From Caldithrix abyssi DSM 13497 (GTDB lineage Bacteria; Calditrichota; Calditrichia; Calditrichales; Calditrichaceae), in contig NZ_CP018099.1 of NCBI RefSeq assembly GCF_001886815.1, positions 3,656,501-3,720,500 of the forward strand: 64,000 nucleotides of DNA, given 5' to 3'. Under the pieces are notes generated by a model. That model was given only the letters and a program-made list of their open reading frames with translations, searched no databases and had not been told where the DNA came from. Below, one piece after another: positions 1,544 through 45,731 of the stretch (within the stretch, counting starts at the first letter, position 1; each line of letters opens with the position of its first letter). A program made the position numbers and the translations under genes.

Positions 1544-2100
1544 GGGCGTAAATAGCACCGATTTGCTTAGTTTTCGGCTTACATTTTGTGATACAGTTCT
1601 ATTTTTTCTTTTCGATCCTGGCGTTCCCTTTTCAGTTGACGCTGGACAGAAAGGTTTGCGTGAAAAAATCTTTGTGCGCTTTGTGACTTCTTTGCGCTCT
1701 TGGTGGTTCGTTTTTGGTTGCGGCTGCGCTGCCTTAGGGATAGTTTTTGAACCTTGATTTTCAGGATTACGGGATTTTCTTGATTTTTTACTACAATGAA
1801 ACGATGCATCCCATTTTAAAGATAAATTCTGGAATGCAGATAAAATAATCCTGTTAATCCAAAAATCGGGCAAATCCTGGTTCAAAATTTAATTTCTCAT
1901 CTTCCGGTCATTCCAATCCCGTCCTGACCTGAAGATTGACAGCCACCATTTTTGTAGAAGCGAAGGATGTTCATCTGTTTTTTAAAAATATTTATTTAGC
2001 GTGTACAAAGATTAGTGCGAGCCAAAGCGAAATTTTAAGGAGAATCCTTCGCTTTTACTGATTTTTCCTCGTAACGTTTTGGGAAGATTTCTCCTCCCCC
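1544..2100. other. Gene-free region with dispersed intergenic repeats
   Basis: No credible gene. It holds copies of sequences that recur elsewhere in the window. The stretch at about 1672-1741, including TGTGACTTCTTTGCGCTCT and GGTTGCGGCTGCGCTGCCTT, recurs near 6151-6300 and 12605-12700. The stretch at 1850-1910, including CAAATCCTGGTTCAAAATTT and CCGGTCATTCCAA, recurs at 5875-5943. ORFs predicted on the minus strand here are translations of these repeats. Confidence 0.7.
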
Positions 2101-2280
2101 GTGGAACGGGCTCGTCGAAATGACAGGAGAGGACCCGTGGAACGTATTCATCGAAATGACAGGGGAAGACCTGTGGGACGTGTTCATCGAAATGACAGGA
2201 GAGTTGGAGAAGGACGTGTTCGTCGAATTGACAGGAGATTGGGAGTGGAACGGGCTCGTCGAAATGACAGGGGAGAGACT
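2101..2280. repeat. Five tandem copies of a 36-bp unit
   Basis: Units start at 2101, 2137, 2173, 2209 and 2245, each exactly 36 bp, with the shared core TCGTCGAAATGACAGG near the middle and a variable end. The period is a multiple of three, so all frames stay open and produce spurious ORFs. The core matches the inner arm (TCGAAATGACA) of the MITE at 12711-12856. Confidence 0.85.
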
Positions 2281-2382
2281 ACCTTTTGCCATTCCGTGGA
2301 GCGCCTACCACTCCGTCATTTAGAGGATTCCGCCGGCGGGACGACGAGAAAGCTTTTTTATCCTTCACCGCTCCCCCCCCCG

Positions 2383-41887: not shown

Positions 41888-41921
41888 CCGCAGGATCCTT
41901 ACAGGACGAGACCGCCCCGTT
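41888..41921 (-). repeat. tRNA-Ser fragment joined to hairpin motif
   Basis: On the minus strand, AACGGGGCGGTCTCG (41921-41907) is identical to 15 nt of the tRNA-Ser(CGA) D-arm/anticodon-stem region. It is followed directly by TCCTGTAAGGATCCTGCGG (41906-41888), a variant of the 20-nt insertion found in the array at 42.3-43.2 kb. The order (tRNA piece, then hairpin) is the reverse of that in the array. It overlaps the GIY-YIG stop codon by two bases. Confidence 0.8.
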
Positions 41922-42162
41922 AAAGAATGCCGCGACCTTTTAACCATTGGCGACCTTCAATCGTTTTGAAAAATTGCTCCCGCTGAAACGCTTCCGAACG
42001 AGTAGCAAATTCTTCGTAGTAAATGAGTCTCCAGGGACGAAAGGCTTTGGTGGAGCGCACCTTCCCGCTGTTGTGGCGCGTTAACCGTTCTTCCAGGTTC
42101 TGTGTGTGACCAAAATAATGACGACCGGAAGCTAAACTTTCAAGAACGTACGTGTAGTACAT
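41920..42162 (-). CDS. GIY-YIG nuclease-like protein
   Basis: An 80-residue single-domain protein of the GIY-YIG superfamily (UPF0213/YhbQ-like group). The first motif reads MYYTYVLESLASGRHYFGHTQN, with YYTYVL as the GIY part and HYFGHT as the YIG part (His in place of Tyr-Ile context). Conserved Arg in LEERLTRHNSG, and WRLIYYEEFATRSEAFQREQFFKT containing the catalytic-site Glu, are present. The start codon lies only 2 bases after the 3' end of tRNA-Ser(CGA) on the same strand, so there is no room for an ordinary ribosome site outside the tRNA. The 3' end touches a tRNA-Ser fragment. Short but full length for this group. Confidence 0.8.
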   Translation of the reverse strand: MYYTYVLESLASGRHYFGHTQNLEERLTRHNSGKVRSTKAFRPWRLIYYEEFATRSEAFQREQFFKTIEGRQWLKGRGIL

Positions 42163-42164
42163 GC

Positions 42165-42251
42165 GGAGAGGGTGGGATTCGAACCCACGGACCCCGAAAC
42201 AGGGTCAACGGTTTTCGAGACCGCCCCGTTCAACCACTCCGGCACCTCTCC
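42165..42251 (-). tRNA. tRNA-Ser(CGA)
   Basis: An 87-nt tRNA with the long variable arm of serine tRNAs. The acceptor strands GGAGAGG / CCTCTCC pair fully, the anticodon loop is CTCGAAA (anticodon CGA, reading UCG), the T arm GTGGGTTCGAATCCCAC is canonical, and the discriminator is G. CCA is not encoded. It is preceded (upstream on the minus strand) by eight partial copies of its own 5' half. Confidence 0.95.
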
Positions 42252-43159
42252 AATTATTTCATCTTTTAATTTCTAAAAAATTTAACTTTAACACAATACT
42301 TTTTCATTTTCGAGACCGACCCGTTTCCGCAGGATCCCTACGGGACAACCACTCCGCCACCTCTCCAATTATTTTATCTTTATTTCTAATTAATTCAACT
42401 TTAAACTATGCTTTTTTATTTTCGAGACCGACCCGTTTCCGCAGGATCCCTACGGGACAACCGCTCCGGCACCTCTCCAATTATTTCATCTTTATTTCTA
42501 ATCAATTTAACTTTAACACAATACTTTTTTATTTTCGAGACCGACCCGTTTCCGCAGGATCCCTACGGGACAACCACTCCGCCACCTCTCCAATTATTTC
42601 ATCTTTATTTCTAATCAATTTAACTTTAACACAATACTTTTTCATTTTCGAGGCCGACCCGTTTCCGCAGGATCCCTACGGGACAACCACTCCGGCACCT
42701 CTCCAATTATTTCATCATTATTTCTAATCAATTTAACTTTAACACAATACTTTTTCATTTTCGAGACCGACCCGTTTCCGCAGGATCCCTACGGGACAAC
42801 CACTCCGGCACCTCTCCAATTATTTCATCTTTTAATTTCTAAAAAATTTAACTTTAACACAATACTTTTTCATTTTCGAGACCGACCCGTTTCCGCAGGA
42901 TCCCTACGGGACAACCACTCCGGCACCTCTCCAATTATTTCATCTTTTAATTTCTAAAAAATTTAACTTTAACACAATACTTTTTTATTTTCGAGACCGC
43001 CCCGTTTCCGCAGGATCCCTACGGGACAACCACTCCGGCACCTCTCCAATTATTTTATCTTTATTTCTAATTAATTCAACTTTAAACTATGCTTTTTTAT
43101 TTTCGAGACCGACCCGTTTCCGCAGGATCCCTACGGGACAACCACTCCGGCACCTCTCC
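42252..43159 (-). repeat. Tandem array of eight tRNA-Ser 5' halves with a 20-nt D-loop insertion
   Basis: Read on the minus strand each unit is an AT-rich spacer of 56-59 bp, then GGAGAGGTGCCGGAGTGGTT(G) as in tRNA-Ser(CGA), then the 20-nt insertion TCCCGTAGGGATCCTGCGGA in the D-loop, then AACGGGTCGGTCTCGAAAA, ending within the anticodon loop. The 3' half of the tRNA is missing in every unit. On the plus strand the CGAGACC landmark of the units is at 42311, 42423, 42536, 42649, 42762, 42877, 42992 and 43104, with periods of 112-115 bp. The real tRNA (landmark at 42216) plus its leader is the ninth, insertion-free member. The ORF-like open frames across it are translation artefacts. Confidence 0.95.
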
Positions 43160-43174
43160 AAATAATATAAAAAG

Positions 43175-43259
43175 CGGAGAGGGTGGGATTCGAACCCACG
43201 GTGGCTGACGCCACACACGATTTCCAGTCGTGCCGATTCGACCGCTCTCGCACCTCTCC
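43175..43259 (-). tRNA. tRNA-Ser(GGA)
   Basis: An 85-nt serine tRNA. The acceptor strands GGAGAGG / CCTCTCC pair, the anticodon loop is CTGGAAA (anticodon GGA, reading UCC/UCU), the variable arm GTGTGGCGTCAGCCACC is long and paired, the T arm is GTGGGTTCGAATCCCAC and the discriminator is G. CCA is not encoded; CTTTTT follows directly. It is the most upstream gene of the tRNA-Ser locus. Confidence 0.95.
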
Positions 43260-44342: not shown

Positions 44343-45731
44343 ATGTTTAATATCGAAACGTACAAAGATCGTCGGCAAAGATTGAAAGAACGGATGAAGG
44401 ATGGTATTTTGCTTTTCCTGGGAAATAATGAATCTCCCATGAACTATCCGGCCAATGTCTATCCCTTTCGGCAGGACAGTACTTTCCTCTATTTCTGGGG
44501 ACTTGATCAACCAGCCCTGGCGGCCGTCATCGACCTTGATCAGGACAAAGAAATCATTTTTGGCGATGATTTTTCGGTGGATGATATCGTCTGGATGGGG
44601 CCGCAACCCAAACTCCACGATCTTTGCGCTCAGGTCGGGGTGCAAACCGTTAAGTCCTCTGCCGATTTAGCCAATTTTATTTTTAGGGCGTTGCAAAAGG
44701 GCCGCCCCATTCACTTTCTGCCTCCTTATCGCCACGATAACATGATTAAACTTCAGGAGATTTTAGGAATTCGCGCTGATTACCTGAAAAATTATGTTTC
44801 CGTGCCCTTCATCAAAGCCGTTGTGGAACTGAGGTCTGTCAAATCCGAAGAGGAGATCATCGAAATTGAAAAGGCGCTGGATATTACCTATCAGATTCAT
44901 CTGGAGGCCATGAAATTAATTCGACCGGGTCTAAAAGAATACGAAATTTCCGGCGTTCTTAAAGGTAAAGCGATGAGTCTGGGCGGCAGCCTTTCTTTCC
45001 CGATGATTTTTTCCGTGCATGGCGAAATTTTACACAATCCGCACCAACTTAATCTCATGGAAAAGGGTCAATTGGTGGTGCTGGATTGCGGCGGAGAGGC
45101 GCCCAGCCACTACGCCGGCGACATTACGCGTACACTGCCCGTCTCAGGAAAATTTTCCGAAGAACAAAAAGCGGTTTACCAGGCCGTTTTAAGCGCCCAG
45201 ACCGCCGCAATTGAAATGATTCAGCCAGGAATCAGGTTTCGCGATGTTCACCTTGAAGCGGCAAAAGTGCTTACCCTTGGATTGAAAGAACTGGGTTTAA
45301 TGAAGGGAAATATTGACGACGCCGTTCAGGCCGGAGCCCATGCCCTCTTCTTTCCCCATGGACTTGGTCACATGATGGGCCTTGATGTGCATGACATGGA
45401 AGACCTTGGCGAAGAATACGTGGGATACGATGAACATACAAAGCGCAGCAGCCAATTTGGGCTGGCCAATTTGCGCCTTGCCAGAGAGCTAAAATCGGGA
45501 TTTGTAGTAACCGTCGAACCGGGCATTTACTTCATCCCTCAATTGATCGATCTGTGGCAGCAGGAACAAAAATTCAAAGACTTTATTAACTACGATAAGC
45601 TGGAATCCTATCGTCATTTCGGAGGAATTCGTATTGAAGATGATGTATTGGTTACCGAAAATGGCTGTCGGATTTTAGGCAAACTGATTCCCAAACGCAT
45701 CGAAGGCATCGAAGCCATTATGCAAAAATAA
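44343..45731 (+). CDS. Xaa-Pro aminopeptidase (M24 family)
   Basis: A 462-residue aminopeptidase P-like enzyme that removes N-terminal residues next to proline. An N-terminal aminopeptidase P domain (about 5-135, with LGNNESPMNYPANVYPFRQDSTFLYFWGL) precedes the pita-bread fold. The five metal ligands are visible: Asp in VVLDCGGEA, Asp in YAGDITRT, His in FPHGLGHMMGLDVHD, Glu in TVEPGIYF and Glu in GGIRIEDDVLV. Extra loop residues AYVGYDEHTKRSSQFG-like are common in this subgroup. An AAGGGAAA site precedes the ATG. It follows the CDF gene closely and ends at a strong terminator. Confidence 0.94.
   Translation: MFNIETYKDRRQRLKERMKDGILLFLGNNESPMNYPANVYPFRQDSTFLYFWGLDQPALAAVIDLDQDKEIIFGDDFSVDDIVWMGPQPKLHDLCAQVGVQTVKSSADLANFIFRALQKGRPIHFLPPYRHDNMIKLQEILGIRADYLKNYVSVPFIKAVVELRSVKSEEEIIEIEKALDITYQIHLEAMKLIRPGLKEYEISGVLKGKAMSLGGSLSFPMIFSVHGEILHNPHQLNLMEKGQLVVLDCGGEAPSHYAGDITRTLPVSGKFSEEQKAVYQAVLSAQTAAIEMIQPGIRFRDVHLEAAKVLTLGLKELGLMKGNIDDAVQAGAHALFFPHGLGHMMGLDVHDMEDLGEEYVGYDEHTKRSSQFGLANLRLARELKSGFVVTVEPGIYFIPQLIDLWQQEQKFKDFINYDKLESYRHFGGIRIEDDVLVTENGCRILGKLIPKRIEGIEAIMQK

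Follow-up and report, generated by a model that had tools for sequence, protein, structure and literature searches.

Bacterial genomes often contain very small hairpin repeats, most of which move in ways that are still unsettled; to our knowledge, their mobility has so far largely been without an enzyme. Structured RNA genes are the landing place of some double-hairpin elements of mitochondrial DNA and some small dispersed repeats of cyanobacteria, and we know of no nuclease tied to either. The Ssn nucleases are small stand-alone GIY-YIG proteins that cut single-stranded rather than double-stranded DNA at a repeat sequence. tRNA genes are integration sites for large elements. In the RAYT system, a single-copy chromosomal nuclease gene lies beside clusters of short hairpin repeats, of which more copies occur elsewhere in the genome (PMC3116915).

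Here we describe a locus of Caldithrix abyssi DSM 13497 in which a small GIY-YIG nuclease gene is framed by a tRNA gene and hairpin-bearing tRNA pieces. It lies in a 64,000-nt stretch (NZ_CP018099.1, positions 3,656,501 to 3,720,500, hereafter the window) of a genome of 4,978,541 bases in one contig. A literature search at the level of titles and abstracts turned up no account of GIY-YIG genes that are linked to tRNAs and accompanied by hairpin-tagged tRNA copies, and the observations below point to an undescribed tRNA-linked nuclease and repeat system spread over many bacterial phyla.

The GIY-YIG gene and its tRNA-Ser surroundings

On the minus strand, tRNA-Ser(GGA) is followed by eight truncated tRNA-Ser copies (42307-43159), tRNA-Ser(CGA) and the GIY-YIG open reading frame (ORF). 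The features, in window positions, are:

43174..43259, minus strand: tRNA-Ser(GGA), upstream neighbour (ARAGORN)
43100..43159, minus strand: array unit 1, layout as unit 8
42988..43047, minus strand: array unit 2, layout as unit 8
42873..42932, minus strand: array unit 3, layout as unit 8
42758..42817, minus strand: array unit 4, layout as unit 8
42645..42704, minus strand: array unit 5, layout as unit 8
42532..42591, minus strand: array unit 6, layout as unit 8
42419..42478, minus strand: array unit 7, layout as unit 8
42307..42366, minus strand: array unit 8, made of tRNA-Ser(CGA) positions 1-21, a 20-nt D-loop double hairpin and tRNA positions 22-40
42163..42251, minus strand: tRNA-Ser(CGA), intact (ARAGORN)
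41920..42162, minus strand: GIY-YIG ORF, ATG start, 80 amino acids, the sole intact tRNA-clade copy in the genome
41907..41921, minus strand: 15-nt tRNA-Ser fragment, corresponding to tRNA positions 22-36 (BLAST)
41888..41907, minus strand: variant of the insertion hairpin, GTCCTGTAAGGATCCTGCGG on this strand, at the anticodon-loop end of the fragment (sequence comparison)

The ORF matches PF01541 over residues 1-67 of its 80 (E 3.4e-17; 62.9 bits against a curated cut-off of 22.6), and its AlphaFold model is a single compact fold with a mean pLDDT of 97.8, the nearest solved folds being the UPF0213 protein BH0048 (E 1.1e-12) and an Slx1 homologue (E 7.8e-5). Y5, Y16, R26 and H30 are identical in 36 of 36 proteins and E62 is present in at least 90%; we take these tyrosines, arginine, histidine and glutamate to have the active-site roles. 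The pooled pN/pS over eight close ORF pairs is 0.23, and the protein is therefore under purifying selection, of which the L062/L092 and L097 pairs taken alone show little. An NCBIfam search with the window protein returned no family, and none of the PADLOC models for anti-phage defence matched it at E ≤0.1.

The first-pass annotation had the ORF starting on the same strand at the 3’ end of tRNA-Ser(CGA), which stands, and two bases after it, which does not: ARAGORN places 0 nt between the two, the Rfam match 1 nt. It had also seen no separate ribosome site, and indeed no Shine-Dalgarno-like stretch is visible by eye ahead of the ORF, since the acceptor end of the tRNA occupies the preceding bases. 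At the other end, the TAA stop codon overlaps the exact 15-mer AACGGGGCGGTCTCG as described, by two bases (BLAST E 2e-4 within 3.2 kb), and the hairpin variant following the 15-mer agrees with each of the eight array copies at 18 of 20 positions (90%). This abutting layout of tRNA, ORF and fragment exceeds chance. The start geometry recurs in relatives: of the 70 ORFs placed after a tRNA, 19 begin at a distance of -1 to 4 nt from its end. At L063, in another genus, the stop codon overlaps nearly the same D-loop-to-anticodon tRNA piece (by eye).

The array units match tRNA positions 22-40 with 0-2 mismatches, are each followed by an AT-rich spacer, and repeat with a period of 112-115 nt. Their 20-nt insert, TCCCGTAGGGATCCTGCGGA, occupies the D loop, and the hairpin after the ORF-end fragment the anticodon-loop position; a one-hairpin fold of the 20-mer is also possible.

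Whether tRNA-Ser and the fragment become one where the ORF is absent, a check proposed in the first-pass annotation, can be read from congener G003, where tRNA-Ser(GGA) and a complete tRNA-Ser(CGA) lie 23 nt apart with no ORF, fragment or array, followed by a homologue (by eye) of the aminopeptidase-like gene at 44343. Since the tRNA is complete both with and without the ORF, the fragment is not its missing half. The two tRNA genes are 30 nt apart in the relative G002, adjoining a homologue of the transporter gene and again without the ORF. G002 and G006, both fragmented assemblies, have one hairpin-bearing tRNA copy each (by eye), in G002 a tRNA-Ser(GGA) copy upstream of the pair, and no nuclease match; G001 gave no match to the tRNA query.

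Across the C. abyssi genome, 7 of the 43 tRNA genes found by RF00005 adjoin hairpin-bearing partial copies:

tRNA-Ser(CGA): 8 hairpin-bearing copies and the fragment
tRNA-Ser(TGA): 5 copies upstream and 3 downstream (counted by eye)
tRNA-Ser(GCT): 3 copies upstream and 1 downstream (counted by eye)
tRNA-Glu(TTC): 12 copies downstream
tRNA-Glu(CTC): 3 copies downstream
tRNA-Cys: 7 copies downstream (by eye; recognised through partial matches)
tRNA-Asn: 4 copies upstream (counted by eye)

Upstream arrays consist of tRNA 5’ parts and downstream arrays of 3’ parts. An automatic detector scan of 43 tRNA calls, of which 41 belong to this genome and 2 to G003, returned 4 positives. Five of the seven arrays have no adjoining nuclease gene; the Ser, Glu, Cys and Asn tRNAs have a nuclease alongside in relatives too.

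The genome holds seven PF01541 matches. The second tRNA-linked copy (L006, G000:C1:546303-549509) contains stop codons and lies beside tRNA-Asn, after four tRNA-Asn copies with the hairpin TCCCGCCGTGGCGGGA or a variant; it is a decayed cassette. The seventh match (L007) is a 619-residue frame. Four loci (L001, L003, L004 and L005) have small GIY-YIG genes within arrays of different intergenic hairpin repeats; one pair is tandemly duplicated, and the proteins form clades separate from the tRNA clade.

We also tried reading the hairpin as one genome-wide dispersed family and rejected it: TCCTGCGGA occurs 90 times against 20 in a reversed control, with 8 sites in the window array and 6 in the tRNA-Glu(TTC) array, and most flanks outside arrays are unrelated. 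A dispersed sequence around CTTAAATTCCTGCGGA with similar flanks (L012, L013, L039, L044 and L050) is apparently unrelated to the tRNA arrays. Separately, the tmRNA of L249 (G000:C1:3008200-3010600; tmRNA at 1898-2284, minus strand) carries an extra TCCCGTAAGGGATCCCGGTTATCGGGA in the loop ahead of the tag reading frame, which is ~29 nt longer than in three relatives; a hairpin may have been inserted here into an RNA gene that is functional. L073 likewise has extra sequence at this place.

tRNA linkage and split tRNA copies in relatives

A protein search of 60 genomes, C. abyssi included, gave matches in 37. From a profile scan of genome contigs, the best 80 of 257 relatives were kept as named loci, a set skewed to the tRNA-Ser clade because a narrower alignment served as query. 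After identical ORFs, other-strand matches and those below 30 bits had been dropped, 165 matches were left (including those from the best 80 of 257), and the 108 flanked by 500 nt or more on each side make up the main count. An intact tRNA lies within 500 nt in 82 of these 108 non-redundant matches, the best 80 of 257 relatives being part of the set, against a rough expectation of about 1 in 100 for 43-45 tRNAs in 5 Mb. The nearest tRNA is on the strand of the ORF in all 82 and upstream of it in 51. Among the 57 matches with shorter flanks, outside the main count, 31 have a tRNA. A tRNA fragment is found at 4 of the 26 matches without a near intact tRNA and at none in a reversed-sequence control; neither tRNA nor fragment lies within 500 nt in 22 of the 108, and 11 of these 22 belong to the separate non-tRNA clades. 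The tRNA-GIY-YIG neighbours anticipated from the window thus recur in other genomes, most relatives do not carry the gene away from tRNAs, and its framing by tRNA and tRNA-derived sequence, with the link to a neighbouring array, is borne out well beyond this one locus.

The isotype of the tRNA tracks the protein lineage. The protein tree, built from 142 sequences over 72 columns and with many unresolved forks, has 98 isotype-labelled rows; isotype changes on it number 27 against a shuffled mean of 47.6 (0 of 200 shuffles as low) and Ser changes 7 against 33.3 (0 of 500 as low). The tRNA-Ser group covers CGA, TGA, GGA and GCT anticodons, with records from Bacteroidetes, Ignavibacteria, Balneolaceae, Calditrichia, Omnitrophota and others, and a deep 12-row group with the repeat-set genes of the C. 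abyssi genome has no row with a tRNA.

Our detector of tRNA copies split by 12-45 nt yielded 95 unique cases (102 rows under a looser rule), some weak ones depending on 8-nt anchors. With 400-nt flanks, a split copy with an insert is present at 42 of 80 tRNA-linked loci and at 32 of 39 tRNA-Ser loci. The net insert length among the 95 is 22 nt in 48, 20 in 11 and 18 in 8. Breakpoints leave the stems unsplit in 85 of 95 cases against 55.6 expected, recurring at TTG^AAA in the anticodon loop (29 times) and TTC^GAA in the T loop (21 times), with D-loop sites third; these cases are not independent events, because copies of one array are counted separately.

The 35 unique 22-mers are composed of two 11-nt hairpins, each with 4 bp and a 3-nt loop, and make 7.23 of 8 Watson-Crick pairs where shuffled inserts make 2.21. 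The hairpins covary: 92.1% of the double-hairpin cells are paired against 80.1% when shuffled, and two-sided changes number 31 against 6.0, with 0 of 500 shuffles reaching either value. The alternative of one long palindrome, taken over all 22 columns, was not supported: 72.4% of cells are paired against 73.5% shuffled, and two-sided changes number 6 where shuffles give 15.5. Hairpin 1 has its outermost pair open in 15 of the 35, and loop 1 reads purine-N-A in 30 of 35 and GNA in 19; in DNA, mini-hairpins with a GNA triloop closed by C-G are very stable. Inserts at separate sites of one copy differ in sequence (L142 and L091) and so are not plain copies of each other. The T-loop insert pattern, with up to 2 mismatches, occurs in 0 of 132 genomes of G048’s phylum and 3 of 40 of the window’s phylum; a single insert sequence therefore does not serve as a marker in general.

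A tblastn search for phage or plasmid carriage gave distant matches only, in 7 phage and 3 plasmid records at identities below 60%, and the exact T-loop insert pattern was not found in viral contigs. Several of the contigs examined end inside or beside tagged-tRNA loci. At L065 (oriented 1748-1842) and L131 (3248-3342), ARAGORN names a hairpin-tagged tRNA-Ser copy tRNA-Glu(CTC).

A candidate mechanism and its alternatives

We read these results as a specific process that connects the nuclease lineage with tRNA genes and sets structured inserts into single-stranded positions of the cloverleaf; the simplest enzyme for it would be a structure-specific nuclease working on single-stranded tRNA DNA in its folded form. 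We favor with moderate confidence a minimal structure-specific GIY-YIG nuclease that has the tRNA gene as its cognate substrate, and hairpin-tagged copies as its products or substrate. The comparisons establish purifying selection on the protein, covarying hairpins, recurrent insertion sites and a link to tRNA genes that is biased in strand and specific in isotype; the mode of action is inferred. The substrate would be one DNA strand of the tRNA-Ser gene folded as a cloverleaf, for example in replication; the nuclease would cut in the cloverleaf loops, and repair would leave double mini-hairpins of ~22 nt at the cuts together with tandem duplications of the adjoining tRNA half. Hairpin-tagged copies beside an intact functional tRNA gene would be the outcome, with the nuclease gene carried between them. 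The arrays do look like products of repeated cutting and repair, and the hairpins may be scars, shields against re-cutting or the mobile unit itself. One nuclease could serve several tRNA arrays in trans, as RAYTs are thought to serve REPINs, and the ORF would be translated from a processed tRNA-mRNA transcript. Several observations count against this explanation: there are arrays without an adjoining gene; G002 and G006 hold tagged copies but gave no nuclease match; 22 of the 108 matches have neither tRNA nor fragment nearby; the outermost pair of hairpin 1 is open in 15 of 35 inserts; the 20-mer of the window array can fold as one hairpin; and the DNA fold of a window array unit does not exceed shuffles in stability (z -0.07). 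Moreover, the loop positions may merely mark where inserts are tolerated. A more far-reaching reading, which we put forward tentatively, is that of a system reading DNA shape as well as sequence, in which the cloverleaf of an isotype is recognised in single-stranded DNA, cut at fixed loop positions and written with double mini-hairpins, giving rise to arrays of tagged copies next to essential tRNA genes across several phyla.

The first-pass annotation spoke of a small mobile or homing-type cassette linked to the array next door. Of this, the link to the array is upheld. A free-standing homing cassette would make a double-strand break in a cassette-less tRNA gene and be copied in by homologous repair, with the interrupted copy as an uncuttable scar. 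It would account for the ORF lying between an intact and a damaged copy of one tRNA (for 46 of 67 split copies, the ORF separates the copy from the intact gene), for the presence or absence of the cassette between congeners, and for L062, where an identical 53-nt 3’ part of the tRNA stands on either side of the ORF. However, the protein is a bare catalytic domain of 80 residues with no additional DNA-binding region, whereas the phage GIY-YIG homing enzymes treated in PMC3943268 have extra ones; the intact tRNA beside the cassette ought to stay a target, and nuclease-less arrays of 3-12 units, the majority in the C. abyssi genome, are unexpected. We consider classical homing unlikely; of the two, a nuclease that works on structured tRNA genes, in part in trans, is the better fit.

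Passive hitch-hiking, in which slippage yields tRNA-locus duplications and palindromic inserts while small nuclease genes survive in a safe harbour, agrees with the gene-less arrays and with the genomic islands noted near tRNA genes in C. abyssi (PMC5317091). The uniform strand of all 82 tRNA-linked matches, the tracking of isotypes, the preferred covarying 22-nt insert and the recurrent loop positions demand a specific process instead, and we regard hitch-hiking as quite improbable. An action at the RNA level, with the tagged copies transcribed as tRNA-like decoys or targets and the nuclease acting on or shielded by tRNA-like RNA, would suit insert positions that are RNA loops, the anticodon included, and an ORF that may share the tRNA transcript, given its start codon so near the tRNA end; but the nearest solved relatives of known activity, Slx1 and I-TevI, are DNA nucleases and many tagged copies lack the full acceptor stem, and we regard this as very unlikely. 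tRNA genes also serve integrases through their anticodon and T-loop segments, so tagged copies could protect tRNA genes as decoy attachment sites, but this would leave both the nuclease and the double-hairpin design unexplained and seems the most improbable of these readings.

Comparison with known systems

The tie between this nuclease lineage and tRNA genes suggests that these genes host a second, much smaller kind of element. If the shape-reading system is real, it would provide a way in which very small hairpin repeats of bacteria arise and spread. With one 80-residue lineage, one isotype, a defined 22-nt double hairpin and recurrent loop positions, hairpin-repeat movement becomes testable with a small protein and synthetic oligonucleotides. 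Genome annotation would gain as well, since hairpin-tagged arrays produce false tRNA calls such as the "tRNA-Glu" of L065.

UPF0213 proteins and Slx1 share the GIY-YIG fold with the window protein; Slx1, a branched-DNA nuclease, is larger and works with a partner. The mitochondrial double-hairpin elements and the cyanobacterial small dispersed repeats resemble the inserts in being short, mobile-looking hairpins. The Ssn proteins are likewise small stand-alone GIY-YIG proteins tied to hairpin-forming repeats, but their repeats are intergenic palindromes whereas those of the window are tRNA genes; the C. abyssi GIY-YIG genes that do lie among intergenic repeats encode clades apart from the tRNA clade. 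As in the RAYT/REPIN system, the window nuclease is flanked by hairpin repeats, with six further tRNA arrays in the same genome. Unlike the RAYTs, which are Y1 transposases related to those of IS200/IS605, the window protein has GIY-YIG as its only Pfam match, and, while REPs are not tRNA-derived, the repeat of the window consists of part of a tRNA gene whose loops carry hairpins.
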